Assembly (NCBI RefSeq): GCF_001937445.1
Contig: NZ_MSKS01000001.1
Coordinates: forward strand, 62,001 to 126,000
DNA from: Actinomyces oris
GTDB lineage: Bacteria; Actinomycetota; Actinomycetes; Actinomycetales; Actinomycetaceae
Length of the DNA: 64,000 nucleotides
Reading direction: 5' to 3'
Shown here: positions 2,324 through 64,000 of the stretch, piece after piece
How the letters are laid out: the number at the start of each line of letters is the position of its first letter
How positions within the stretch are numbered: position 1 is the first letter of the stretch
The notes under the pieces: model-generated
Database searches by the model: none
What the model saw: only the letters and a program-made list of their open reading frames with translations
Told to the model about the DNA's origin: nothing
Position numbers and translations under genes: made by a program

Positions 2324-3028
2324 CTACTTACTATTCACGCCGTCCGCACGCGCCTGCTCAATTCCATCGCAGAACCAACGGGTGATCGATTCCGGGTGCG
2401 TGATCGCCGTACCAATGGTGACGGCTAGAGCCCCGCGTTGTAGCGCCTGAGCCGCTTCGCCAGCATTGTGAAATCGGCCCTCGGCAATGATCGGCACATC
2501 AATGTGCTCGCTTAGCTCCTCAACCAGATCCAAGTCGGGGCCACGTGTTGCTTGGCGCTCACCGCTGTATCCAGCCAGGGTCGTCCCCACGAGGTCAGCG
2601 CCCGCATCCCGACTGTCTAGGCCATCGTCCAGCGAGCCACAGTCCGCCATGAGGAGGGTCCCGGGGAACTGACGCCGCACCTCGGTGATGATTTCCTTAA
2701 GAGAATGCCTATCTGGGCGAGGGCGGCGTGTTCCATCAATGGCTACAATCTCGCACCCAGTCTCGGCTACAGCAAGCGCATCCTTGAGTGTGGGGGTGAT
2801 GTAGACGCCGTCGTTGCCGACCTTCACCAGCCCGATGATGGGAACATGCAATACCGGTCTGGCGAGGCGTAGATCGTCCAAGCCCTTAAGGCGCACACCT
2901 ACGGCTCCGCCATGGACTACTGATTGGGCGATCTGAGTCATGGTTTGCGGATGGAGCATTGGTTCGCCGGGATAGGCCTGGCAAGAGACGATGAGTCCTC
3001 CGCGAAGTGCTCCGATGATGTCACTCAT
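2324..3028 (-). CDS. nanE: N-acetylmannosamine-6-phosphate 2-epimerase
   Basis: NanE converts ManNAc-6-phosphate to GlcNAc-6-phosphate, the step that feeds sialic acid or ManNAc breakdown into the GlcNAc route. The protein is 234 residues, the usual size, and is a TIM barrel. Family landmarks visible are LIVSCQAYPGEP near the N-terminus, the GLVKV segment carrying the catalytic lysine, the IDGTRRPRP loop and IIAEGRFHN near the C-terminal phosphate site. It is the last gene of a five-gene operon and its start overlaps the preceding esterase by 8 bases. Neither nanA (sialic acid lyase) nor nagA/nagB is present in the window, so this operon may start from ManNAc rather than sialic acid. Confidence 0.93.
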   Translation of the reverse strand: MSDIIGALRGGLIVSCQAYPGEPMLHPQTMTQIAQSVVHGGAVGVRLKGLDDLRLARPVLHVPIIGLVKVGNDGVYITPTLKDALAVAETGCEIVAIDGTRRPRPDRHSLKEIITEVRRQFPGTLLMADCGSLDDGLDSRDAGADLVGTTLAGYSGERQATRGPDLDLVEELSEHIDVPIIAEGRFHNAGEAAQALQRGALAVTIGTAITHPESITRWFCDGIEQARADGVNSK

Positions 3029-3944
3029 AGGGTCTCCTAGCGTCGATGAGGTCTACCAATCGCTCGAGAACCAGTTTCCTCGCCCTGTCTGCGATCCTTG
3101 GTCCGTTGAGACCGAGAATCCCGTGGCAGGTCCCGGGAAGCAGGATCGCTTCGGTCGGAACGTTTGCCCCTGTCAGAGCTCTAGCGAATGCAAGATTTTC
3201 ATCCAGGAGAGGGTCGCACTGGTTCGCAAGAAGGAATGTTGGCGGAAATCTTGAAAGATCACTCTCTCTGGCCGGTGCCGCGTGGGGTGTCGGATTCTGA
3301 GCACCAAGATATGCCTTCCACGAAGCAGTTGCGTTCGGCAAGTCCCATACGGCTGTGCTGGTGGCGCCCTGCATCGAGGTAGTACTCAGACGGTCGTCCA
3401 GCACCGGCTCAATAAGGAATACATGGTCCGGCATGCAGATTCCGGTATCTCGACATCGAAGAGATAGTCCCGCAGCCAGGTTTCCCCCGGCGGAGTCGCC
3501 GTAGATGATTCTCGTCGCTTCCGGGTACTGCGTGAGGATCCATGTCCAGGCGGCAACGCAGTCCTCGAGTGGAAGCGGAAAAGGGGCTTCAGGAGCGAGT
3601 CGGTAGTTAGGGCTTACGACCGTTGCGCCGGTACGCAGGGCTAGAATGGCGTTCCACGCGTCGTCGTACTTTGCCTGCCCAGCAACGAAGCCTCCACCAT
3701 GAATGGATAGGATGACCGCGCTCGCACCATCCTCCGGGGCATGAACTCTCAGCTCCAGTTCCCCGCCATCGGTTGGAACTGTGAGGACTGTGCGAGTAAG
3801 CCCCTCAGGGACAGGGGTATCCTGGTCGAGGATCGTTGCCCCTGCGTCACGCATTGTCTGCGGATCCCAGGTGGTCTGGGGAGGAACTTCCTCCGCAGCT
3901 ACCGCCACCTCAGGATCAAGAAGGCGAGAAGGCTCAAACGTCAT
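3021..3944 (-). CDS. Alpha/beta hydrolase, HSL-type esterase/deacetylase
   Basis: This is a 307-residue cytoplasmic hydrolase of the hormone-sensitive-lipase branch of the alpha/beta fold. The oxyanion-hole motif HGGGF and the nucleophile elbow GDSAGGN are both present, and DE and H segments near the C-terminus (QCDPLLDE, GTCHGI) supply the rest of the triad. The ATG at 3944 is preferred because GAAGGAGG lies just upstream and the codon overlaps the previous gene's stop as ATGA; an upstream in-frame start at 3974 lacks these. Its place between a sugar transporter and NanE suggests that it removes an ester or acyl group from an imported amino sugar. The substrate itself is unknown. Confidence 0.85.
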   Translation of the reverse strand: MTFEPSRLLDPEVAVAAEEVPPQTTWDPQTMRDAGATILDQDTPVPEGLTRTVLTVPTDGGELELRVHAPEDGASAVILSIHGGGFVAGQAKYDDAWNAILALRTGATVVSPNYRLAPEAPFPLPLEDCVAAWTWILTQYPEATRIIYGDSAGGNLAAGLSLRCRDTGICMPDHVFLIEPVLDDRLSTTSMQGATSTAVWDLPNATASWKAYLGAQNPTPHAAPARESDLSRFPPTFLLANQCDPLLDENLAFARALTGANVPTEAILLPGTCHGILGLNGPRIADRARKLVLERLVDLIDARRPYE

Positions 3945-4741
3945 GAGATGACCTCCTTCAGGAACGAGTCGCACACCGCATAGAAACCCTCGGACTGGTC
4001 GCGGCGCACGCAGTGAGATGCTCCAGGAACTAGGGTTGTACGGATCATGGTGTTGCCGAGAGAACGAACTGCCTGTAGCCCGTCAACTCCCAGGAGGACG
4101 TCATCGCCGTCAGACGTCACTAGGAGCGTGGGCATAGCCAGGATCGAGGCCGTCTCTTTCCAGGAGGTTTGGGGAGAGACATAGCCGGTGCGGACGAAGT
4201 CTCGATCTACCTGAACTTTGCCCTGTAACCACGCACAGGACTCTTCGAGGTCCCACGCTGGGTAAAGTTCCCGGTTCTCGGTTAGCGCCTCGTCGGGATG
4301 ATCCGAGATCCATGCCATACGGGTAGCTAGTGCTGTCGCCTCGTTGCTGTAAGCGGTTCTCTGGTCCTCGGAGAGCCACGCAGGTTCCTCTAGGACCAGT
4401 GCGTCAACGAGATCCGGACGCTGAGCGGCAGCAGCCGCTGCAACCGCACCGCCCATTGAATGGCCAATCAAGATCAGCGCAGTGCTGTGCTCACGGCCCT
4501 CGAGGATGGTGATGAGGTCCTTAACCATTATCCCAACTGGATCGTTCAGTTCTGCGGGGCTGAAATGGGTGGATAGGCCGTGACCGCGTGCATCTATGGA
4601 GGTGACGTCGTAGTCATTCCGCCAGTGCCGGTGTGCGGCTGCCAGTGATGCTGCATTGTCGGTGACACCATGATTGAGGAAGAGCTGAGGCGCTCCGGAT
4701 TTGATGGTGTGGATGCGTGCGATTCCAGACGTGCTTTTCAT
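3941..4741 (-). CDS. Alpha/beta hydrolase (second operon hydrolase)
   Basis: A 266-residue alpha/beta hydrolase of the short esterase/peroxidase-like group. It shows NHGVTDN after the first strand, DARGHG, the nucleophile elbow GHSMGG and a C-terminal GASHCV segment with the likely catalytic histidine. No signal peptide is seen, so it should act in the cytoplasm. It overlaps the upstream transporter gene and the downstream esterase gene by 4 bases each, so it is firmly part of the operon. Two different intracellular hydrolases between transporter and epimerase are unusual for a nan cluster and point to a decorated (for example acylated) amino-sugar substrate. That function is inferred from context only. 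Confidence 0.82.
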   Translation of the reverse strand: MKSTSGIARIHTIKSGAPQLFLNHGVTDNAASLAAAHRHWRNDYDVTSIDARGHGLSTHFSPAELNDPVGIMVKDLITILEGREHSTALILIGHSMGGAVAAAAAAQRPDLVDALVLEEPAWLSEDQRTAYSNEATALATRMAWISDHPDEALTENRELYPAWDLEESCAWLQGKVQVDRDFVRTGYVSPQTSWKETASILAMPTLLVTSDGDDVLLGVDGLQAVRSLGNTMIRTTLVPGASHCVRRDQSEGFYAVCDSFLKEVIS

Positions 4742-6093
4742 GCTTCTCTCCTGACGTACTCGCGCTCGATGTCCTCAAGTGTCTTACCGCGTGTCTCAGG
4801 AATGACCTTCAGAGCAAAGACGGCAAGGAGAGTCGTTGCAACGGCGTAGATCCCGAAGGTGCCGACTCCACCAAGGGCATCGAAGAGGCTGAGGAAGGTC
4901 AGCGAGACGATGAAGCTCAGCGTCCAGTTGACTCCGATAGTCAGACTCATGGCGGTCGCACGGATCCGTAAGGGATACAGTTCGGAAGGAATGATGAAGA
5001 CGACGATGTCCAGTCCGACGGCGACTGCGGCAATGTACAGGAAGATGCAGGCAACTCCAATTAAGGAGGTGGCGCCGGAGGTAATTCCACGCATGAGCAG
5101 GAAGGCGAAGATGGCGAGACAGACCGCTTGTCCTGCGGCACCAGCTGCGAGCAGTTTGGTGCGACCGATCTTATCTACCAACCCCATTCCTATAACCGTA
5201 AAGACAATGTTGATAACGCCTACGCCCACCGTAGCGAGAAGGGCCGATGAGGCGCCGAGTCCAGCGCTCTCGAAGATGGAAGGGGCGTAGTAGACTACGG
5301 CGTTTACGCCAGTGAGCTGTCCTAGGATCTGTAGCCCTACACCTGCGACGAGGACATGGCGTAGCCGGGGGTCGAGCAGTGCTTTCCATCCATCAGACTG
5401 GGTAGTCTCGTCAGTGGAGCGGATGTCCTCAAGCTCCGTCTTCACCTCTTCAGGGGTGCGGAACTTTTCCAGCACCTTCTGGGCTTCATCGCTACGACCG
5501 TTGATGGCGAGCCAACGCGGTGACTCTGCCAGGCTGAGGACTCCGATGCCCAGGAGCAGCGAGGGGATGACCGCTAGGCCGATCATCCAGCGCCAATCCT
5601 GATTGATACCGGCAAGCGCGTAATTTGATAGGTAGGCGAACATGATACCGGAGACGATCATCAGTTGGTTCAGGCTGACCAGTCTGCCTCGTAGATCTGC
5701 CGGGGCGAGTTCAGAGATAAACACGGGGACGATGCTGGAGGCGCATCCGACTGCCAATCCCAGGATGACCCGGGAGATTACCATAATTGGTGCAGACGTT
5801 GAGAAGGCTGCCATCAGCGAACCAATGATGAATACCGCAGATGCGGCCAGGAGGACAGGGCGACGCCCGAACTTGTCGGACAAACGTCCGGAGGACATAG
5901 CTCCCAGTGCTGCTCCCACGGTGAGGGAAGAGACGACGACGCCTGAGGTGAAGGGCGTTAGACCGAAGTAGTCGGTCATGGCGGGTAATGCCCCGGAAAT
6001 GACTCCGGTGTCGTAGCCGAAGAGCAGCCCGCCCAGAGCGATGATGGAAGTGGCCCAGATAACGTGGCCGTTTCGGGTTCCAGTCGTTGTCAT
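4738..6093 (-). CDS. MFS sugar transporter (sugar porter family)
   Basis: A 451-residue membrane protein with about twelve hydrophobic segments, of the sugar porter branch of the major facilitator superfamily, usually proton-driven uptake. Signatures present are GGLLFGYDTGVISGA in the first helix, SDKFGRRP in the loop between helices 2 and 3, PESPRWL before the central loop, and PETRGK near the C-terminus. It lies 2 bp after the ROK kinase gene and overlaps the next hydrolase gene by 4 bases. Bacterial nan loci mostly use TRAP, ABC, SSS or NanT-type carriers. A GlcP/XylE-like porter here is therefore a less common choice and argues for a neutral sugar such as ManNAc rather than charged sialic acid. 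Confidence 0.9.
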   Translation of the reverse strand: MTTTGTRNGHVIWATSIIALGGLLFGYDTGVISGALPAMTDYFGLTPFTSGVVVSSLTVGAALGAMSSGRLSDKFGRRPVLLAASAVFIIGSLMAAFSTSAPIMVISRVILGLAVGCASSIVPVFISELAPADLRGRLVSLNQLMIVSGIMFAYLSNYALAGINQDWRWMIGLAVIPSLLLGIGVLSLAESPRWLAINGRSDEAQKVLEKFRTPEEVKTELEDIRSTDETTQSDGWKALLDPRLRHVLVAGVGLQILGQLTGVNAVVYYAPSIFESAGLGASSALLATVGVGVINIVFTVIGMGLVDKIGRTKLLAAGAAGQAVCLAIFAFLLMRGITSGATSLIGVACIFLYIAAVAVGLDIVVFIIPSELYPLRIRATAMSLTIGVNWTLSFIVSLTFLSLFDALGGVGTFGIYAVATTLLAVFALKVIPETRGKTLEDIEREYVRREA

Positions 6094-6095
6094 GG

Positions 6096-7094
6096 TCAGG
6101 CTTCCGTTCTTTCAGCAGGGATGTCACACGTTGGAAAGTTCAGGGAGAATGCGGCGGCACCCAGCAGGGCTGCCTGTGAGCCGCGGGTTGCCGTGGTGAT
6201 AGGAGTGTTGGCGACTACGTCCATGGCGTCATGGGCCACGCCCTGCTTTACCGCGTCAAGCCACCCGCTGTAGGCCTCGGTGACGCCACCCGCAAGAGTG
6301 ACTAGATCGACGTCGAGGGTGTTGAGCAGGCTACCGATGACCCTGCCCGTGGCGAATCCTGCGACGCGGTATGCCTCCTGGGCGGCGGTATTGCCCTCCT
6401 CTGCGGCTCGAGCGAGGGTCCTTCCGTCCCTCGTTGCGTCATCGCCAGCGTTCAGCTTCTTGGCGATACGTAGGATTCCCGGGCCTGAGGCTAGTGCCTC
6501 GATGTGTCCGTTGCGCCCGCAGGTGCACTTCATGCCTTCGGCCTCACTGACACCGATGTGCCCAAGGTGTCCAGCTGCACCATGGGAGCCCTGAAGGAGG
6601 TTCCCGTCGGTCACGATGCTTCCACCGATTCCTGTGCCGACGGCCACCATCATCATTGAGCGGTGACCGCGTCCAGCACCGAAGAGAGCTTCGCCCAGGC
6701 CATGCGCGTGGGCGTCGTTCAGGGCACGGAAAGGTACGGAGAACTCGGCAGTAAATGGTGCGGATAAGTCAGCTCCTCTCCAGCCCGGGATAGTGTCAGT
6801 AGCGTGAGTGACGACACCACGGCTGGAATCGATGACTCCTCCTGCTGACATGCCGACGGCGTCGAGTTGAACGCCTGGGTGACCCGAGAGCACATCCCTG
6901 GCTACTCGAACAGCTGCCGCCAGGATGCCGTCGCTGCCGTCCTCAGTCGCGGTCGGGGTTGTTGCTGACGTGATGATCTTGGCGTCGCCGTCGCTGATAC
7001 GTACTAGCGCGGCGTTGATCTTGGTGCCGCCGATGTCCAGTGCCACGACGTTGTGTTGTGGGCTGGTTCCGCTCTGATGCAATGGGGGCTGCAT
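6096..7094 (-). CDS. nanK: ROK-family sugar kinase, probable N-acetylmannosamine kinase
   Basis: A 332-residue ROK kinase expected to phosphorylate ManNAc (or a related hexosamine) with ATP. The phosphate-binding motif DIGGTK is at residues 20-25, the catalytic aspartate is in NDAHAHG at about D127, and the second ATP motif is VGTGIGG. The zinc site is unusual: after GHLGH (H179) the cysteine cluster reads CTCGRNGH, so the third cysteine (usually CxCGxxGC) is histidine at about residue 197. An AAGGAG lies about 11 nt before the ATG. It is the first gene of the operon, directly behind the divergent GntR regulator. Pairing with NanE supports ManNAc kinase; glucokinase or GlcNAc kinase remain possible. 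Confidence 0.85.
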   Translation of the reverse strand: MQPPLHQSGTSPQHNVVALDIGGTKINAALVRISDGDAKIITSATTPTATEDGSDGILAAAVRVARDVLSGHPGVQLDAVGMSAGGVIDSSRGVVTHATDTIPGWRGADLSAPFTAEFSVPFRALNDAHAHGLGEALFGAGRGHRSMMMVAVGTGIGGSIVTDGNLLQGSHGAAGHLGHIGVSEAEGMKCTCGRNGHIEALASGPGILRIAKKLNAGDDATRDGRTLARAAEEGNTAAQEAYRVAGFATGRVIGSLLNTLDVDLVTLAGGVTEAYSGWLDAVKQGVAHDAMDVVANTPITTATRGSQAALLGAAAFSLNFPTCDIPAERTEA

Positions 7095-7184
7095 GAAAAC
7101 TCACTCTCCTTTGAGCTAGTCCGCGGGAGGTCCGGGGACCGGGATCTCACGCTTCTGCCAGGGCCTGATACGATCCCCGGCAGA

Positions 7185-7218
7185 TCACCATATGGTAGAC
7201 TTTCTAACCATAGGGTGA
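7185..7218. promoter_or_regulatory. Operator candidate for the GntR regulator
   Basis: A 12-bp inverted repeat (7185-7196 TCACCATATGGT and 7207-7218 ACCATAGGGTGA) with one mismatch and a 10-bp spacer lies in the space between the divergent kinase operon and regulator gene. Such a site could control both promoters. The link to this regulator is inferred from position only. Confidence 0.55.
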
Positions 7219-7282
7219 TTGCTGCCGATGGTACACCTGTGTCGGGTGGATGGGAACGGTTTGATTAAAGATTGGAAAAGCC

Positions 7283-7969
7283 GTGCATAAGTACGAGCGC
7301 ATTCGTGAGGCCATTGAGGTGATGGTGGCTGAGGCTGGTCCTGGGGCGCGCCTGCCCACTGAGAAGGAGTTGGCTCGGCGCTTCGACGCCTCAGCGATGA
7401 CGGTGCGGCGCGCTCTGCAGGTGCTCTCGGAGGCCGGCCAGCTGTACGGGGTTCCTGGGAAGGGAATCTTTGTGGCGCGTTCTCGTGTGACCAAGGTGGC
7501 TTGCGTGTCTACCTCCTTCACGGAGGCGCTGCGGGCTTCGGGACGTCGGGCGAGCAGTCGACTCATCTCGGCAGCCTTGCGGCCGCCCTTGGATGAGGCC
7601 GAGCGTGACTTCTTTGCTGTTGGTGAGGGTGGGTTCGTTGTTGAGGTGCGTCGCGTGCGCCTTGGGGATGGGGTCCCTATCGGCTTTGAGGTCGCTGCTC
7701 TTAATGCGGCTATACTTCCTCGAATTCTTGGGTATGATCTCACTGGATCTCTGTACGAGTTGATTGAGCATCGCTACCATCTTGAGATTGAGCGCACAGG
7801 TATCGTTGTATCATCCCGACTTCCGGATGGGGTTGAGGCGAAGTTACTTGAGGTAGCGACCACTGAGCCGTGCCTGCAGACAGTTGTCACTGCCCAGGTT
7901 GCGGGTGGGCGGAATCTTGAGCGCACCGTAGCGATCTATCGCGGAGACATGTATGAGCTGGCCATCTGA
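7283..7969 (+). CDS. GntR/HutC-family regulator with UTRA domain
   Basis: A 228-residue transcription factor. Residues 1-70 form the winged helix-turn-helix of GntR proteins (ARLPTEKELARRF, MTVRRALQVL, GKGIFVAR); the remainder is a UTRA ligand-binding domain of the kind that senses sugar phosphates and similar small effectors. The GTG start has only a weak ribosome binding site (GGAAAAG). It is transcribed away from the amino-sugar operon with an inverted-repeat operator candidate in between, so it probably represses that operon until ManNAc-6-P or GlcNAc-6-P accumulates. The ligand is inferred. Codon bias is weaker than in core genes, matching the rest of the island. Confidence 0.88.
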   Translation: MHKYERIREAIEVMVAEAGPGARLPTEKELARRFDASAMTVRRALQVLSEAGQLYGVPGKGIFVARSRVTKVACVSTSFTEALRASGRRASSRLISAALRPPLDEAERDFFAVGEGGFVVEVRRVRLGDGVPIGFEVAALNAAILPRILGYDLTGSLYELIEHRYHLEIERTGIVVSSRLPDGVEAKLLEVATTEPCLQTVVTAQVAGGRNLERTVAIYRGDMYELAI

Positions 7970-55620: not shown

Positions 55621-55671
55621 GACTTCTTTCCTCATGGGACGGCGATGGCAGCGGCTGCATGATCCTTCGAT

Positions 55672-55686
55672 TGCAAGAATCTTGCA
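55672..55686. promoter_or_regulatory. 15-bp palindromic operator upstream of glgP
   Basis: Perfect arms TGCAAGA and TCTTGCA around a single centre base lie 52 nt before the glgP start. The CTTGCA half-site resembles operators of LacI-type maltose regulators in streptomycetes (MalR-type CTTGCAG sites). Control by such a regulator is inferred. Confidence 0.55.
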
Positions 55687-55989
55687 GGAACCGCCAGCAG
55701 CCTACCCCGTCCGCGCCGTGGGGGACACGGAAGGGCGTGTGACGATGCCCCAACAAGGCTGGGCTCGGCGGCGTCCGAGCGGCGTGAGGCCCGGCTGATC
55801 TTAGCGTTGTACTCGCAGAGACCTGCAGGCAGTGGATGCGCCTGGCGATCCGGGTCCGGTTGAGGTCGTCCTGGGGCCAGTGGTAGGCCGGGAACGCAAC
55901 CGTGCAGTTGTCGGTCAAGGCGCCGATGATCAGGATGCGATCCAGCCCGACGGCGAGGTTGACTGGACGGGCGGAGCGGGTGGAGGGAG

Positions 55990-56304
55990 TCCTTGGTGCG
56001 GGTCGGAGCCGGATGGGCGCCCTGTTGGCGGGACCCCGCCTCGCTCTCCCAGCCCGCCCCCAAGTCCATCGCGGTCCATAGGCTTGGCGGGCGCCTCCAC
56101 GATGAGTCTCGTCGGTACTTGCGGCCCCTGGGCCTGGACGCCTCCTTCTTGGCCCCGCCAGGGCGCTTGGCGGCCTGGGTCAGGCGCCTGCGCGCGTTGT
56201 CCCGGCTCCAGCCAGTCACCGCGCACACCTCGCCCGGGCATCCGCCCCTTGTCGCCCTTGGACGCCCTGGCGTACTTCCTGGTGATCTCAGCCCTGGCCC
56301 CCAT
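55990..56304 (-). pseudogene. Transposase/integrase-core remnant (frameshifted)
   Basis: On the minus strand one frame reads MGARAEITRKYARASKGDKGR from about 56304, and the neighbouring frame continues with VTGWSRDNARRRLTQAAKRPGG. Together they match the N-terminus of integrase-catalytic-core transposases of actinobacterial IS elements (GARAEITRKYA, then TGWSRDNARRRL). A frameshift separates them and the catalytic domain is missing, so this is a decayed fragment. It accounts for part of the 1,050-bp gap between glgP and the GH13 gene and sits at the border to lower-GC DNA. No terminal inverted repeats were identified. Confidence 0.65.
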
Positions 56305-56670
56305 CGACAGCTCGCTTCCCATGCCCACCACAGTCCGCGGATTTCGCAGGCACTTCCACATGAGGCACGGGACCTCCTTCGCGGGCATCCACCATGAGTC
56401 TCGTCGATCGCTGGACATGTCGAGATCGCGGGCATACAATTATACGGGGCGCTCGGCGCGCCATCCTGTTTCGTCGCCGTGCACGATGGCCGCCGCGCTC
56501 CGCAATATTGACCCAGTTGTTGTAGGTTTTTGCGAGAGGAAATCTATCGGTCGCACTGTGTTTTATAGAGGTTTTCTTGCTGTAGCGAAAGTATCGATCA
56601 TTGAAGTTGAGCGCTCTGTCGTCGACCGTAGTTCATGATGTGCATGTTAATGATTGGAGGAAGTGAAGTT

Positions 56671-57924
56671 ATGAAACCTTGGGTAAGGGATTCGATATGG
56701 TGGCAGGTGTATCCGTTAGGTTTTACAGGGGCATCAGTGCGACCATTACCCTCGGATACCCCTGGCGATTCCGCCGGGCGTGGCCTTAGTTCTCTGGTGC
56801 CGTGGCTCGATTATCTGATAGATCTTGGCGCCAATGGGCTTGCTCTAGGGCCGATCTTTCGATCTGAGACGCACGGTTATGATACCGTCGATTTTTTCTC
56901 AATAGACCCTAGACTTGGTGACATCGACGATTTTGATCGCATGATGGGCAAGTGTCGCGCCAAAGGAATCAAAGTGATGCTTGACGGCGTATTCAATCAT
57001 GTCGGGACGGCTCATCCGCTGTTTGTCTCGGCGATGAGAGGTGACGACTCCGCCCGCTCGATGTTCCGCTTGCAATTAGCGGAAGATGGGAGCGTCCGAG
57101 GGTATCAGGACTTTGAAGGACATCGAGGGCTGGCGGTCTTGAATCATGACTCCTCGGAAGTGTGTGATCTCGTTGTTGATGTCATGCGTCATTGGTTGCG
57201 CCGGGGAGTGTCAGGTTGGCGTCTGGATGCAGCGTACTCGATGAATCCAAATTTTTGGGGAAAGGTTCTTCCCCAGGTCAGGAGTGAATTTCCTGAAGCG
57301 TTCTTCGTTGGTGAGGTAATCCATGGAGATTATGGGGACATTGTGCGAAAGTCCGGGATGGACTCAGTGACTCAGTATGAACTATGGAAGGCTGTCTGGA
57401 GTTCATTGAAGGACGGGAATTTCTTCGAGTTGGACTGGTGCTTGAAACGACACAATTCCTTTATGAACAGTTTTGTCCCGGCAACTTTTGTTGGAAACCA
57501 TGACGTCACGCGACTGGCTACCACAATTGGTGACGATTTGATGCGTCTTGCAATCGTCATTCTGTTCACGGTCGGTGGTGTTCCATCCGTATATTACGGT
57601 GATGAGCAGGCGTTCCGAGGGGAAAAGAAGGATATGCTCGGCGGTGATGACGAGGTTCGCCCCGAATTCCCTGAGACCCCAGAAGAACTTAGTCCTCTTG
57701 GGGCCGGAATGTATCGGCTGCATCAAGATCTCATCGCTCTGCGACGTCGGCATCCGTGGCTGGTTGGCGCGAAAACTCGGCCGATCGAACTTGATAATCG
57801 TGCGTACAGTTACGAATCTGTCGGAGATGATGGGCAAGTTCTTGCCGTCACGATGAGACTGGATCCTGCCCCTTTGGCAATTGTCTCCGCCAACGGACAA
57901 GAGTTTCTCAGGGTTGGGGGCTAG
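56671..57924 (+). CDS. Cytoplasmic GH13 alpha-amylase-family enzyme
   Basis: A 417-residue GH13 protein without a signal peptide. It begins VRDSIWWQVYPLGF and keeps the catalytic set: DGVFNHVG, nucleophile D186 in WRLDAAYS, acid/base E215 in FVGEVIHG and D278 in VGNHDVTRL. The C-terminal beta domain is short. GC content and third-position bias are much lower than in the GH13 gene at 19504, so it has a different origin. The ATG at 56671 follows GGAGGA. It ends 45 bp before the large synthase gene on the same strand, suggesting co-transcription and a possible glycosyl step in making or maturing a lipid product. That link is inference. Confidence 0.85.
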   Translation: MKPWVRDSIWWQVYPLGFTGASVRPLPSDTPGDSAGRGLSSLVPWLDYLIDLGANGLALGPIFRSETHGYDTVDFFSIDPRLGDIDDFDRMMGKCRAKGIKVMLDGVFNHVGTAHPLFVSAMRGDDSARSMFRLQLAEDGSVRGYQDFEGHRGLAVLNHDSSEVCDLVVDVMRHWLRRGVSGWRLDAAYSMNPNFWGKVLPQVRSEFPEAFFVGEVIHGDYGDIVRKSGMDSVTQYELWKAVWSSLKDGNFFELDWCLKRHNSFMNSFVPATFVGNHDVTRLATTIGDDLMRLAIVILFTVGGVPSVYYGDEQAFRGEKKDMLGGDDEVRPEFPETPEELSPLGAGMYRLHQDLIALRRRHPWLVGAKTRPIELDNRAYSYESVGDDGQVLAVTMRLDPAPLAIVSANGQEFLRVGG

Positions 57925-57969
57925 CCTGCCACCACGTGAATCTTTATGCTACTTTAAAGGAAATTATTT

Positions 57970-60900
57970 ATGTTGACGGTGCCTCAAATTATCGTTCTTA
58001 GTCCATTTGAATCTGCTGACCAATATATTCCTTCTTGTGCAAGTGAAGCTGGGGCGCTTGGAATCGTAGACATATCGTATGCCACAAATACGTTGGAAGC
58101 GGAGAGATTTTTGCGCTCTGCGTCCGGCGCGGTTGGAGTTAGATTGTCAGGTCCTCCGCTTCTGCCTTGGGACGTCCTTTGTGATGCACTAGCTTCGTGT
58201 CAGCCGGATACAGTTCTTCTTGGATCTGGATGCCTTGAAGATGATGACGTTACGAGGTTGATCGGGGGCGATTCGATCATCTTAGGCGAGGCAGTCTCAT
58301 GCGATGAGGCATGCCGTTGGATCGATCGCGGCGCCGACGGCGTGGTGATCCGGGGACGGGAAGGAGGTGGAAGTACGGGAGACCTGTCGAGCCCGGTCAT
58401 TCTCGCACAGATCCTCGAGCAGCACCGTGACGCGAAGATCTGGGTTCGAGGAGGCGTGGGTCGGCATACTGCCAGAGGCCTAATCGCAGCCGGGGCTACG
58501 GGGGTTGTGTTGGACGTGCAGTTAGCGCTAATGCCCGAGTCAGATACCTCGGAGACCGTCCGTCGAATCCTGAGCGCACCATCTCTTCCCCGGTCGATCA
58601 GACGCGACGGGGAGCAAATTCTACCAGACGCGAGAGGCCTCTACTCGGAAATTCCCCGCCGTGAACGTCAGATCGGTGACGACGCATTGATCGCCAAACT
58701 GTTTTCTCAGTACTACGGCTCAGTTCGAGAGGCCGTGACCGACATGGCGGCGAGAATCAAGCAGACGGCTGACACGTGGAGGTCGGTCAACAAACTCAAT
58801 CTTCTCGACGGGCGTGCCGCGAGGGCCCAGCGCACTAAGTCCCCCTTCATTCAGGGGCCCATGACGAGAGTCAGCGATGTTCCAGAATTCGTCAAGGAGG
58901 TGTGTGATGCCAATGCGTTGGGAACGCTTGCCCTGGCGGTCGCGAGTCCGTCCCAGGCGGAGGCGCTGCTGACTCAGGCTGAGGCCGTACTGCAGGGACG
59001 GACATGGGCCGTGGGCATGCTGGGATTTCTCGATGAGGCTCTCGTCCGGCGGCACCTGGAGCTCGTTCAGCAAAGTTCTGCCTCCGCTGTGGTGCTCGCT
59101 GGAGGTCGCCCGTACCAGGAGAAGCTCCTTCGGGATGCGGGAAAGCAGTGCTTCGTTCATGTCCCTTCCGCGGACCTGCTTCGTACATTCGTTGCCGCTG
59201 GCGCGCGGTGCTTTGTTTTCGAAGGTGCGGAGTGCGGCGGGCACATCGGCCCTCTCTACTCACTCCCTCTATGGGAGCTTCAAGTCAGCGTCCTTCTGGA
59301 ACTCGTCGACGATCACAAAGTTGCTGCCGAGGATCTTGTGATTGCGATGGCCGGCGGGATACATGACTCCTCCAGCGTCGCGATGGCTCTCCTAACCGCA
59401 GCGGATCTCGTGGAGCAGGGCAGTGCGGTCTCCCTACTCATGGGAACGGCGTACTCGCTCACCACCGAGGCGGTGCGGACGGGAGCGGTGACCCAAGACT
59501 TTTGCGACGTTGTTACAAGTGCTACGTCGAGTGCCAGGCTGGAGACCGCTCCCGGGCACACTACCCGCTGCGCACCTACACCTCTGGTCGAAGAGATTCA
59601 TGCGGTGAGAGAATCTAAAATCCGTGCCGGCGAACCTGATCAGAGTATCTGGAGGTGTCTGGAGGAGATGACGCTCGGACGTCTCCGCATGGCGACGAAA
59701 GGCCTCGTACGGGAAGGGGAAGAGTTGCGTCCGGTCCCGGTCGATAAGCGTCATGAGGGTGGCTTGTACATGACCGGTGAAGTATCCTTGCTTATTCAGT
59801 CCACCAGTAACACTAACGAGTTGCATGAAGGAATTCTGAAGGGGCTTAATGAGGTCGAGGAACGGCTTGACGAACTCTCTTCCTCTCGGCGAGCGAATGT
59901 CTTCGAACAGGATTCGGACGATCAATCATCGTGGGGTGATGGAATTGCCATTGTGGGCATGTCGGGTCTGTTCCCCGGAGGTGGTGGAATCGAAGAGTTC
60001 TGGACCCACGTTCTGGAGTGCGATGACCTTGTGACTGATGTCCCTGATCAGCGCTGGGACAAGGAGATTTTCTATGATCCAGGTGCTCGAAATGTGCCGA
60101 GGGCTGACAGTGCGAGAGGCGCTTTTCTTCCTGCTGTTCCCTTTGATCCCGTATACTTCGGTATCCCGCCGCTTTCGCTTACCAGCATTGAGCCCGTGCA
60201 GCTGCTCGCGCTGGAAGCAGCAAGGCGTGCTCTGGTCGATGCAGGCTTAACACCTGGAGAAGTGAGCGAAACGGTCAGCATCGTTTTTGGTGCAGAGTCT
60301 GGCAGTGATCTGTCTGCAGGAATTTCCTTACGTACGGGGTTGCCAGCGTTCACTGGCGTCCTTTTAGATGGATTTGATGCCGCACTTCCCCGTCTCACGG
60401 GAGACTCTTTCCCTGGAATGTTGGCTAATGTCGTATCCGGGCGTGTTGCGAACCGTCTTGACCTGTCGGGATCGAACTTTGTCGTGGACGCTGCATGCGC
60501 GTCATCTCTTGCGGCGTTAAAGGTAGCCTGTCATGAGCTTATTCTTGGAGATTGTGACGTAGCGTTGGCTGGCGGTGCCGATACTCATAACGGTATTGGA
60601 GACTTCGTTATGTTCTCCTCGGTGGGTGCACTGTCGAAATCTGGTCAATCACGTCCGTTTGACAGGGAAGCTGATGGCATCGTCCTCGGAGAGGCGGTTG
60701 GGTGCGTCGTGCTGAAACGCGTCGGGGACGCGTTGCGCGATGGTGACCGCATCTACGCCACCATCCGTGGAATGGGCTCAAGCAGCGATGGACGTGCCTC
60801 GGGTCTCACCGCACCGCGCCCAGAGGGGCAGCGTCGGGCGCTGGAGCGAGCGTACCGGTGTGCAGGTGCGGATCCGGCATCGGTCGAACTCATCGAGGCA

Positions 60901-63900
60901 CATGGGACTGGTACCGTCCTCGGCGACCGCATCGAGCTCCAGGCGCTGACGGACTTCATGACTGCTCACGGGGCCGATCGTGGACAGTGCGTCGTTGGGT
61001 CGGTAAAATCTCAAGTCGGTCATACTAAGTGTGCTGCGGGCTTGGTCGGGCTGGTCAAGGCTGCACTGAGCATTAATCAGGGAGTACTGCCTCCAACGGC
61101 AATGCTGGCTAGTCCCAACCCGATATGGGATCCCGGTTCTTCTCCTTTTGTCTTTCGCGGCACCGCCGCCCCTTGGCCTCGTGAGCCTTCTGCTCGTGTT
61201 GCTGGAGTAAGCGCATTCGGATTCGGCGGGACCAACTATCACTGTGTTCTGACTGGCGAGCATTCGAAGCCGCGCTACTTGCCTGATCCGGAGCGTCCGG
61301 TTCTGACGGCAATACGTGGAGACTCTCTGGAATCAGCTCAGGATGTCGCTCGGGCCGCCGTTGGCGTTCTGTCTGAGGGCGGTAGCGGCTCCGATGTTGC
61401 GAGAATGCTGTCGGAACGCTACGTCTCCTCTTCTGCGCCCGTTCAGATCGCCTTCACCTTCCGAACCACCGAGGATTTGTCGCGAGCGCTCCATGTCGCG
61501 GTCGACGGTGTCACCGACCCGGGAGTGCACAGGAGATCCAAATCAATGCCCGACACAGTGCGTCTCGCCGTCCTGTTCAGTGGCCAGGGTTCGCAACGGA
61601 CCTCAATGGCCCGGACGATTCTGCAGAGGCGGCCCGGGCTGTCGTGGCTGGTTCAGGACCAAGGATCGCTTATCTCACGCTGCTTCCCACCGCTTCGCTT
61701 CGCTGACGGTGAGATGGAACAGGATGAGTGCGCTGTGCGACGCACTGACCGTGCGCAGCGTCTCCTTGCGATGGCGGAGTTGGCTGGATGGATGGCGTTC
61801 TCCGAGCTGGGAGCCGAGGTCTCGATGTTGGCCGGACACAGTTTCGGAGAGCTTGTGGCGCTCGCTGCAGGGGGATCAATGTCCTCAAGCACTCTGTACG
61901 GCTTGGCACGTGCCCGGGGCGAGGCGATGAGGCGAACCGGTGATGGAGGAGCGATGACCGCGCTGCGGGCGGGGATCGAGGACGTCACGGCACTGTTGGA
62001 TCGTCAAGGTGATTCATCACTAGCCATCGCCAACATCAACTCCTCCTCGCAGGTCGTTGTCGGCGGACCACAAGAAAGAGTGGAGGCGCTCGAGCGCGCT
62101 GCGACCGAGGCCGGCATCGTCTCGAGGCGCCTGTCAGTGTCAGCCGCGTTCCACACCCAGCAGATGGAACCCGCTTCAGCGGAGTTGGCCGCAGCAGCCT
62201 TGGAAATGGTCATGGCCCCACCGAAGGTGCCGGTATATAGGAATGCCGCCGCCACCCCGTACGGCGACCAAGATAGGGTGGGAGAGGAACTGGCGTCACA
62301 ACTGCGGTCTCCTGTTGACTTCGCGCGGATGGTTCGCACCATGGCGGACGATGGAGCGACGGTGTTCCTTGAGATCGGTCCGGGACGCGTTCTGTCTCCT
62401 TTGGTGACCGCCACCACTGGGTTGGAGTGCCTCAACCTGGATCTCAATGCCGCCGCAGACGTCCTCCCGGACCTCGCTGCCCATCTACTGACCCGCGGGA
62501 TCAATCTGAATGTTGGGTGGTTGCGTCGTGCGATGGAGCCAACGTCGGCGATCGGTCCCGAGTACCGAGGGATCGTCGTTGACGGGATGGGCGTCGACAC
62601 GCGGGGGAACGATATCGAGGGACTGACACGTCGACCACGCCCTTGCGTAGCGATCGTAGAGTCTGGCGTTTCTTCGACGGGGCTGTCGCGAGCGACAGAG
62701 TCCCCTAGTTCAGTGTCAACGTCAACGGTCTCGCAGGTAGGCTCATCCACCTACGTTCAGGGCGGGGAGGTCGCGGAGTCGGAACTATGGGTCTCTCAGA
62801 CGGATGAACTTCTAGGACGACCCATCGCGCTAGATCTGGCTCGAGCTTTCGAACGTCCGATGCAGTTGGCGGTGGCCGATCAGCATCAGGAAGAATCCGC
62901 AGAATTTCATCAGAGTGCTAGACGCGCACCATCCCTATCGGAAAGGACAGGACAAATGACGACTGTTAACGACGTCGTACTGGAGTATTTGAATACTTCG
63001 ACCAAAATCGCAGACAGGCAGGCTGAGATTGTTCGCACCCTAATGGAAGGCGTTTCGGCAGACAAGAGCGGTGAGGTGACGGAGTTCAATGAACGACGTG
63101 CCGAACCAGATTCTCGTTGGCTGATTGAAGCGAGTGCCCAGCAGCACGCATGGCCGACTTCATCTGATGGAATTCTCGGCGATGAGATTAAGGCGGAGGA
63201 TTTCCAGCTCAATTCCGGTAAGGAGTCGACCCACCCTAGTTCGTCCATTCCAATCGTTTCGGAAGCCATGGTTGACCGTCATGATGACACTCCAACGTTG
63301 GCAAGCGACGAAGTTTTGAGAACAGCAGATGAAGTTGCTTCGACGGAAGTTGGCCACAGTGTCGGTGACTCCGTTATTAACGTTCACGATATTGTGCTAT
63401 CCGTCATTGGGGAACGTACTGGTTACCCGGCGACGATGATTGAGGACGAATTGGATCTCGAGTCTGATCTCGGCATCGACTCGATCAAGCGCCTTGAGAT
63501 TGCGGGCGATCTTGTGCGCGAATGTGGTCTCGACGTTGACAGTATGAACAACAATGATCTCGAGGACTTGTCCAAGTCCCGTACTGTTGCTGCTATGACT
63601 CAGTGGTTGCTGACACAGCGAGGTGTGAAGGGTGAGACTCTGAGGAGTGATCAGGACTGCGATCCTCAGCAGAGCACGGCCGAGAGCGAGGTGGTGGACG
63701 CCCAGCCCTTTCGCCTCGAGCTAAGGATGTCGGAGGCGCTCGCTCCTCGTCCACTTGACGACGGCACGGCCCTGCGCCTGGTCCGGACGGATCATCCCGA
63801 GGAGACCAGTGCACTGGCATCCGAGCTCGGTACCCTCGTGCACGACCCAAATCTCGATGAAGTCCCTCCAGGAAGCGTGCTCATTGACTTTGCCGACGAT

Positions 63901-64000
63901 CGCGGCCCCGATAGAGAACTACCGGGCTACTTCGACACGCTTAAGAAACTCGCCTCTACACCAGGCCTCGAGGCGCTCCTCGTCGTCAGACGAGTCACAT
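57970..64000 (+). CDS. PfaA-like type I polyketide/lipid synthase with N-terminal PfaD-like domain (3' truncated by window)
   Basis: One frame stays open from the ATG at 57970 (AAAGGAAA 8 nt upstream) to the window edge, at least 2,010 residues. Domains in order: a TIM-barrel half resembling nitronate monooxygenase (about 1-210); a fuller PfaD-like flavin enoylreductase-type barrel (about 290-580: FIQGPMTRVSD, ECGGHIGP, AGGIHD, LLMGTAYS); a ketosynthase from about 658 with DAACASS (C843), EAHGTGT (H978) and GHTKCAAG (H1018); an acyltransferase from about 1198 with GHSFGE (S1291) and a malonyl-type AFH motif; a linker; an acyl carrier protein with DLGIDSIK (S1838); then the start of what is probably a ketoreductase region. 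The ketosynthase resembles PfaA of polyunsaturated fatty acid synthases. PfaD is normally a separate protein; here it is fused in front. The product is unknown. Confidence 0.9.
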   Translation, partial: MLTVPQIIVLSPFESADQYIPSCASEAGALGIVDISYATNTLEAERFLRSASGAVGVRLSGPPLLPWDVLCDALASCQPDTVLLGSGCLEDDDVTRLIGGDSIILGEAVSCDEACRWIDRGADGVVIRGREGGGSTGDLSSPVILAQILEQHRDAKIWVRGGVGRHTARGLIAAGATGVVLDVQLALMPESDTSETVRRILSAPSLPRSIRRDGEQILPDARGLYSEIPRRERQIGDDALIAKLFSQYYGSVREAVTDMAARIKQTADTWRSVNKLNLLDGRAARAQRTKSPFIQGPMTRVSDVPEFVKEVCDANALGTLALAVASPSQAEALLTQAEAVLQGRTWAVGMLGFLDEALVRRHLELVQQSSASAVVLAGGRPYQEKLLRDAGKQCFVHVPSADLLRTFVAAGARCFVFEGAECGGHIGPLYSLPLWELQVSVLLELVDDHKVAAEDLVIAMAGGIHDSSSVAMALLTAADLVEQGSAVSLLMGTAYSLTTEAVRTGAVTQDFCDVVTSATSSARLETAPGHTTRCAPTPLVEEIHAVRESKIRAGEPDQSIWRCLEEMTLGRLRMATKGLVREGEELRPVPVDKRHEGGLYMTGEVSLLIQSTSNTNELHEGILKGLNEVEERLDELSSSRRANVFEQDSDDQSSWGDGIAIVGMSGLFPGGGGIEEFWTHVLECDDLVTDVPDQRWDKEIFYDPGARNVPRADSARGAFLPAVPFDPVYFGIPPLSLTSIEPVQLLALEAARRALVDAGLTPGEVSETVSIVFGAESGSDLSAGISLRTGLPAFTGVLLDGFDAALPRLTGDSFPGMLANVVSGRVANRLDLSGSNFVVDAACASSLAALKVACHELILGDCDVALAGGADTHNGIGDFVMFSSVGALSKSGQSRPFDREADGIVLGEAVGCVVLKRVGDALRDGDRIYATIRGMGSSSDGRASGLTAPRPEGQRRALERAYRCAGADPASVELIEAHGTGTVLGDRIELQALTDFMTAHGADRGQCVVGSVKSQVGHTKCAAGLVGLVKAALSINQGVLPPTAMLASPNPIWDPGSSPFVFRGTAAPWPREPSARVAGVSAFGFGGTNYHCVLTGEHSKPRYLPDPERPVLTAIRGDSLESAQDVARAAVGVLSEGGSGSDVARMLSERYVSSSAPVQIAFTFRTTEDLSRALHVAVDGVTDPGVHRRSKSMPDTVRLAVLFSGQGSQRTSMARTILQRRPGLSWLVQDQGSLISRCFPPLRFADGEMEQDECAVRRTDRAQRLLAMAELAGWMAFSELGAEVSMLAGHSFGELVALAAGGSMSSSTLYGLARARGEAMRRTGDGGAMTALRAGIEDVTALLDRQGDSSLAIANINSSSQVVVGGPQERVEALERAATEAGIVSRRLSVSAAFHTQQMEPASAELAAAALEMVMAPPKVPVYRNAAATPYGDQDRVGEELASQLRSPVDFARMVRTMADDGATVFLEIGPGRVLSPLVTATTGLECLNLDLNAAADVLPDLAAHLLTRGINLNVGWLRRAMEPTSAIGPEYRGIVVDGMGVDTRGNDIEGLTRRPRPCVAIVESGVSSTGLSRATESPSSVSTSTVSQVGSSTYVQGGEVAESELWVSQTDELLGRPIALDLARAFERPMQLAVADQHQEESAEFHQSARRAPSLSERTGQMTTVNDVVLEYLNTSTKIADRQAEIVRTLMEGVSADKSGEVTEFNERRAEPDSRWLIEASAQQHAWPTSSDGILGDEIKAEDFQLNSGKESTHPSSSIPIVSEAMVDRHDDTPTLASDEVLRTADEVASTEVGHSVGDSVINVHDIVLSVIGERTGYPATMIEDELDLESDLGIDSIKRLEIAGDLVRECGLDVDSMNNNDLEDLSKSRTVAAMTQWLLTQRGVKGETLRSDQDCDPQQSTAESEVVDAQPFRLELRMSEALAPRPLDDGTALRLVRTDHPEETSALASELGTLVHDPNLDEVPPGSVLIDFADDRGPDRELPGYFDTLKKLASTPGLEALLVVRRVT

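Follow-up and report, generated by a model that had tools for sequence, protein, structure and literature searches.

A horizontally acquired, reduced Type M lipid synthase, very probably, beside a GH13 glycosidase gene in Actinomyces oris

RESULTS

Gene A and gene B encode a two-protein synthase

We examined 64,000 nucleotides (the window; bases 62001 to 126000 of contig NZ_MSKS01000001.1) of the 3.2-Mb genome of Actinomyces oris (assembly GCF_001937445.1). The right end of the window runs into a three-gene cassette: a GH13 glycosidase gene followed by two synthase genes, A and B. Positions are those of the window. Gene A is open on the forward strand from 57970 to the window end at 64000, which covers the first 2010 of its codons, and the frame continues to a TGA 1151 nucleotides (nt) past position 64000, giving an intact protein of 2393 amino acids (aa). 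The original prediction had claimed a single frame of at least 2,010 codons joining a PfaD-like flavin barrel to a PfaA-like ketosynthase (KS), acyltransferase (AT), and acyl carrier protein (ACP). The single frame is confirmed, and neither a frameshift nor a stop interrupts it shortly after 64000.

Pfam and NCBIfam searches give the domain order enoyl reductase (ER)-KS-AT-ACP-ketoreductase (KR) in one protein. The Pfam matches are ketoacyl-synt (211 bits), Acyl_transf_1, PP-binding, KR, and two NMO stretches. The KS, at 59944 to 61266 (ends approximate), is of the PfaA type, with C843, H978, and H1018 fitting the KS cysteine and its two histidines. The AT (61573 to 62397) has a GHSFGE motif with the active-site serine, S1291, and an AFH motif that we take to be a malonyl-type signature. 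Motif and Pfam searches find one ACP only (63394 to 63546), with S1838 as its serine. All five residues lie where they had been predicted. PfaA (TIGR02813, 685 bits) is the top NCBIfam family, in agreement with the PfaA-like KS-AT-ACP assignment and with an iterative synthase of that type.

Gene B starts at the A of the gene A stop codon (TGATG overlap) and encodes 1431 aa with the Pfam order KS-AT-dehydratase (DH)-phosphopantetheinyl transferase (PPTase); motifs for all four domains are present. The DH match is weak (PS-DH, 21.6 bits against a cut-off of 23.7), with LLDH and DxxxQ in place, and Pfam finds no FabA-type dehydratase/isomerase in protein A or B, only this PS-DH-like domain. The extension beyond 64000 that the original prediction had proposed thus located a KR in protein A and a DH and PPTase in protein B. 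The AT serine of protein B is kept in our copy and in 103 of 103 relatives. Together, genes A and B look like a self-contained iterative synthase.

A second carrier, G007, belongs to another species of the genus. Its gene B is 74% identical to ours, with the PPTase motif GIDIE reading GIDVD, and its gene A is broken by a contig end. The ratio of nonsynonymous to synonymous differences (pN/pS) between the two gene A copies is 0.14 to 0.24 within the ER, KS, AT, ACP, and KR parts, 0.27 over ER to ACP as a whole, and 0.52 in the linker at residues 1491 to 1795; it is 0.21 for gene B. Since the values are low, gene A is under purifying selection. Between the same two carriers pN/pS is 0.18 for GH13 and 0.24 to 0.27 for gene A, with synonymous sites near saturation. 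The gene B copies of two relatives are irregular: that of G692 (L208, 12134 to 16572) changes frame internally, through assembly error or decay, and that of G397 (L086, 6086 to 10330) is split over two frames.

The synthase belongs to a widespread family

Uncharacterised "Type M" secondary lipid synthases were described by Shulse & Allen (2011). In the part of PMC3098273 available, Table 2 places Renibacterium, Frankia, Actinosynnema, and S. avermitilis under Type M, and the Renibacterium salmoninarum synthase is listed as such. According to passages of PMC13291983, a fused pfaDA with pfaBC-PPTase is similar in arrangement to the uncharacterised R. salmoninarum synthase. Gene A has the first element of this layout, an ER fused N-terminally to KS-AT-ACP-KR, and gene B has the second, KS-AT plus DH and a C-terminal PPTase, with the weak DH match as a qualification.

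A tree of KS domains agrees with this placement. Our copy and that of G007 fall inside a 52-row clade of fused synthases (support 100/97), which also includes the Pseudofrankia locus L141. Seven modular-type polyketide synthase (PKS) reference rows form a separate clade (100/100), and a third group of 14 rows holds 10 of the 12 PfaA-type reference loci (100/99); the remaining two (L199 and L200) lie beside Nonomuraea. One row, L053, is the KS of a gene B whose gene A is off the contig, and was kept. Since our KS lies outside the modular clade, we rejected a modular type I PKS; the original prediction had proposed a KS tree as a check, and it came through this one.

We also rejected an archetypal polyunsaturated fatty acid (PUFA) synthase, PfaA-E of Types A and B. 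These share with our synthase the PfaA-type KS-AT, the KR, and a flavin-barrel ER; ours, in contrast, has one ACP motif instead of tandem ACPs, one PS-DH-like domain with no FabA-type double DH found, and an N-terminally fused FabK-like ER instead of a separate PfaD.

The original prediction had regarded the fusion of ER and PfaA as unusual, which turned out not to be so. A whole-protein scan of named genomes gave no match, and an ER alignment was then used as the seed. At least 573 candidate stretches encode a relative; the 80 loci kept come from Streptomyces, Micromonospora, Kutzneria, Pseudofrankia, Chryseobacterium, Chitinophaga, Pedobacter, Aquimarina, and other genera. ER and KS share a frame in 80 of 80, a figure partly ascertained by the use of the ER as seed. 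The same holds for 24 of 24 class relatives with both domains found; at two other loci the ER falls outside the contig. We therefore dropped the fusion as a novelty. Closer to the host the synthase is rare: gene B occurs in 2 of 213 family genomes (E ≤ 1e-60) and in 4 of 396 sampled order genomes, ours included (E ≤ 1e-90). In the class sample, 66 of 394 genomes, again with ours, match protein B at E ≤ 1e-70, some of them by the KS only.

The flavin part is a tandem pair of FabK-like barrels

The PfaD-like assignment stood in part. An AlphaFold model of residues 1 to 640 of protein A (mean predicted local distance difference test score, 91.8) has two successive beta/alpha barrels. Profile comparison pairs the two halves with each other (probability, 97.7 over 152 columns) and either half with FabK structures (best E, 1e-24 and 1e-22). 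Because residues 206 to 640 made up most of the region covered by the structural search, the evidence for the first barrel's fold is the strand order of the model together with the profile match. The second barrel fits the FabK enoyl-ACP reductases best (Z 34), with the PfaD structures 4yx6, 4z9r, and 6lkc ranked below; PfaD Z scores of 30.6 and 26.6 indicate a fold common to both. No PfaD structure occurs among the best 60 of 66 matches in the barrel profile search. At E ≤ 0.01 the PfaD model TIGR02814 finds nothing in our genome, and the G473 Type M locus has no match to it either; the model scores 638, 631, and 619 bits in G268, G250, and G300, which carry stand-alone PfaA types. The flavin-barrel fold that was predicted is thus shared with PfaD; by the model, the flavin part is a fused pair of FabK-like barrels and not a PfaD-family match. 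A PfaD-like gene does occur in G007 (C21:29940-31184, L255), on a contig other than the cassette's; it lies in a 932-aa frame and scores 436 bits, just below the cut-off of 449.

FabK differs from our protein, which has two barrels per chain, the first with serine in place of the catalytic histidine. This first TIM barrel (57970 to 58815, from the model, profiles, and alignment) reads EGGGSTG from residue 131. Among 26 aligned family sequences, 25 lack the histidine there (R 10, P 7, L 3, K 3, S 1, Q 1, H 1). The second barrel (58816 to 59889; model, profiles, and motif) reads ECGGHIG, and its histidine, H425 in our copy, is conserved in 26 of 26; from its sequence it is likely an active enoyl reductase. 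The first barrel is probably its fused structural partner. Passages of PMC13311796 describe a single barrel for gammaproteobacterial PfaD and name thraustochytrids as the only group with two. The thraustochytrid ERb/ERc pair thus also brings two flavin barrels to one synthase, as separate proteins forming a heterodimer, whereas ours stand in tandem in one chain; neither those passages nor the literature searched yielded a description of such a tandem pair.

The three genes form a low-GC cassette within an insertion

The GH13 gene (56635 to 57924, forward strand) encodes 429 aa, ends 45 nt before gene A, and is the putative first gene of an operon. It matches Pfam Alpha-amylase at 151 bits and has the motifs GWRLDA, FVGEV, and FVGNHD, which we take to be regions II to IV with the Asp nucleophile, the Glu acid, and the Asp stabiliser. 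GH13-A-B is a low-GC cassette inside an insertion of ~13.9 kb between glgP and a glgB homologue. Neither the GH13 gene nor the insertion had featured in the original prediction, and gene B lay beyond the sequence on which it was based. The in-window part of the insertion is 55633 to 64000, and it ends 5549 nt past the window. Homology with the relative G022, whose GlgP is the closest (98%) among 12 relatives compared, ends at 55632 and restarts 5550 nt past the window, with flanks 94% and 90% identical; G022 has ~264 bp at this site. Judging by the similarity, seen by eye, of a short palindrome just left of the insert, the real left boundary may be some tens of bases to the right of this point.

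The left part of the insertion holds a DDE-type transposase remnant (56115 to 56416). Pfam has no match for the transposase pieces; by blastn they match genes annotated as DDE-type integrase, with repeats in G031 and G047. In G007 the glgP-glgB site is empty (~225 bp, the right flank being only 113 bp up to a contig end). Its cassette lies on two small contigs that share a 119-bp sequence close to the start of each, beside integrase-like insertion sequence fragments. Since both carriers keep GH13-A-B and the G007 site is empty, the cassette moves as a unit of three genes and occupies a different locus in each of the two species, an outcome that either transposition or exchange between relatives could explain.

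GC content at third codon positions (GC3) is 0.52 for GH13, 0.59 for gene A, and 0.61 for gene B, against 0.87 to 0.96 for five neighbours. Elsewhere in the window, a block at 2324 to 7969 encodes a NanE epimerase, two alpha/beta hydrolases, a sugar transporter, a ROK kinase, and a GntR-UTRA regulator, and is likely an acquired amino-sugar catabolism cluster.

The usual downstream genes are missing beside gene B

In relatives, gene B is generally followed by further genes. A discrete ACP was found in 69 of 77 loci with at least 500 nt after gene B, an alpha/beta hydrolase in 29 of 30 with 1300 nt, a UDPGT/EryCIII-like glycosyltransferase (GT) in 27 of 29 with 2600 nt, and a methyltransferase in 15 of 28 with 3700 nt. 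These counts include L040, the source of the queries, and L041, and omit loci with too little sequence after B; the ACP-hydrolase-GT tail is a feature counted here and is not part of the published Type M definition. Of the two loci without a GT match, L208 also lacks the ACP and hydrolase, and L056 has both. Our genome has no ACP, hydrolase, GT, or methyltransferase beside gene B in 3557 nt. None of these genes occurs in the 1382 nt available from G007, too short a stretch to rule out a GT. The L040 GT query had no match in our genome, G007, G022, or G013, in a search that included no positive control. Our locus thus has the same two genes as the Type M synthases of R. salmoninarum and Frankia, with a KS of the same clade, but differs in lacking the tail by gene B, in the GH13 gene upstream, in low GC, and in lying on a mobile cassette.

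Does the GH13 enzyme act with the synthase?

The GH13 enzyme could act as a transglycosidase, taking glucose from maltodextrin or glycogen and attaching it to the acyl product of A and B, in place of the UDP-glycosyltransferase found in other Type M operons; we hold this to be a reasonable possibility that falls short of even likelihood. The gene lies directly before gene A in both species, with gaps of 45 and 49 nt, shares the low GC3 of the synthase (0.52 to 0.61) where nine GH13 homologues that are not beside a synthase have 0.86 to 0.96, and was kept with a synthase without an adjacent tail although the cassette occupies different loci. Its nearest solved relatives are neopullulanases and maltogenic amylases, and abstracts report that the latter transglycosylate.

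Alternatively, GH13 is an ordinary maltodextrinase that stood beside the synthase in the donor by chance, and the synthase produces a free or membrane fatty acid without its help. We give this close to an even prospect. GH13 homologues are common, occurring in 45 of 49 genus genomes against the few with gene B, and in G013 (L074, 9743 to 10987) and G040 (L080, 9725 to 10948) a high-GC GH13 gene occupies the same glgP-glgB site with the synthase absent, so the adjacency may be historical; these genes could be ancestral or a relic of a cassette. Against such hitch-hiking, the GH13 gene was kept with the synthase at another locus in a second species and under purifying selection, and the host has another GH13 gene (on contig C19), 98% identical to that of G022. 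The simplest form of the idea, GH13 as a mere neighbour, we favoured at first; it is weakened by the empty site in G022 and G007 and by a GC3 matching that of the synthase.

G692, from another family of the order, bears on both explanations. Within the DNA fetched, at least 1 of 109 Type M loci, that of G692, has a GH13 match, a lower bound because most named loci hold less than 1.4 kb after B and a downstream GH13 could be missed. G692 also lacks the tail, and its GH13 gene lies ~650 nt after gene B, both of which count for the transglycosidase explanation. A seven-domain FastTree places G692 as sister to the two cassette copies (support 1.0), but this grouping is weak in the KS tree (86/39), and a divergent gene, which looks TetR-like, lies between its gene B and the GH13 gene. 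Moreover, the G692 GH13 is no nearer to the cassette GH13 (52 to 53%) than to ordinary copies (53 to 56%). Being about equally distant from all, it implies that a link between GH13 and synthase, if real, arose twice or by exchange.

DISCUSSION

We consider it highly likely that the synthase in the cassette is complete, was acquired horizontally, and is a reduced member of the Type M secondary lipid synthases. Several points weigh against this. Every NCBIfam score is under its curated cut-off, among the best 25 of 55 families for protein A (PfaA itself has a cut-off of 1010) and in 22 of 22 for protein B, and PS-DH falls short likewise. The Type M domain order was taken from the text of PMC13291983, seen in part, and not from the defining figure (Figure 1 of PMC3098273). 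Chryseobacterium and Chitinophaga, two genera that are listed under Type N, fall in the 52-row KS clade too, so the KS tree does not separate Types M and N. A long branch leads to the two cassette copies (0.73 in the KS tree, 1.25 in the seven-domain tree), and function may therefore have shifted. The 45 mechanically chosen open reading frames (ORFs) outside the insert have a mean GC3 of 0.86 (minimum 0.58) under a selection rule that favours high values, and ORFs at 2324 to 7969 have 0.58 to 0.67, so that low GC3 is not confined to the cassette. Finally, literature searches found no product of a Type M synthase, which leaves the chemistry without close precedent. The glycolipids fattiviracin, cycloviracin, and glucolypsin, considered as candidate products, were rejected, as the part of PMC4365757 available gave no gene link. 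We found no description of this cluster in the literature searched; an oral gene cluster paper mentions PKS clusters of Actinomyces in general terms (PMC6469967, in part), and nothing of this type was found in the accessible portion of a paper on Rothia PKS clusters (PMC10668837).

How might the synthase work? The PPTase domain of protein B would activate the single ACP of protein A, the AT of protein A would load malonyl units, and its KS would condense them iteratively. The KR of protein A, the DH of protein B, and the second flavin barrel of protein A could then reduce each beta-carbon, fully or in part, so that the product would be a long chain of fatty-acyl or hydroxy-acyl type. In protein B the active-site motifs of the KS-AT are present, and the AT may release the chain, as available text of PMC12895367 reports for PfaB, a terminal acyltransferase. 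The original prediction had suggested an unusual long-chain lipid or glycolipid head group precursor; a lipid product is plausible. In the reading that we favour, the product of the reduced Type M synthase would be a long-chain acyl compound, possibly one that the GH13 enzyme glucosylates.

A and B are probably not the main fatty acid synthase of the host, because contig C9 (L209) has a frame like that of a type I fatty acid synthase (FAS-I; Fas_alpha_ACP, KS) with an ACPS gene near it and contig C17 (L210) has a lone FAS-II-type KS and ACP. The host appears to have both a FAS-I megasynthase and a FAS-II-type KS plus ACP.

It is improbable, in our judgment, that the cassette makes conjugated or methylene-interrupted polyenes, with KR and DH acting without full use of the ER. 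Polyenes up to C22 are reported in passages of PMC11563203 as the products of an iterative PKS from Rhodococcus erythropolis PR4; PR4 is the strain listed as Type Q in PMC3098273, and this PKS may be its Type Q cluster. However, the domains described for the PR4 enzyme in those passages include no ER, whereas here an ER with its histidine is fused; Pfam also finds no FabA-type DH/isomerase in either protein.

Gene A is real, intact, and a member of a known and widespread family; what sets this synthase apart as a variant is its tandem barrel, its place in a cassette, and its GH13 partner. More speculatively, and with doubt that it will hold, we suggest that a distinct Type M clade swapped the ACP, hydrolase, and UDP-glycosyltransferase for a GH13 transglycosidase. 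Such a mobile three-gene cassette would couple a lipid synthase to the glycogen/maltodextrin pool of the host and make a glucolipid without nucleotide sugars, with the fused flavin-barrel pair, its first barrel nearly always without histidine, as a trait of the family.

Synthases of this layout have at least 573 relatives and no product reported in the literature searched, and the three-gene, self-activating version is a small unit to express that could reveal the product class. The fused barrel pair also bears on why other PUFA synthases use ER heterodimers. If the GH13 enzyme does act on the lipid, the cassette would represent a glycolipid route that draws on storage glucan and not on nucleotide sugar.

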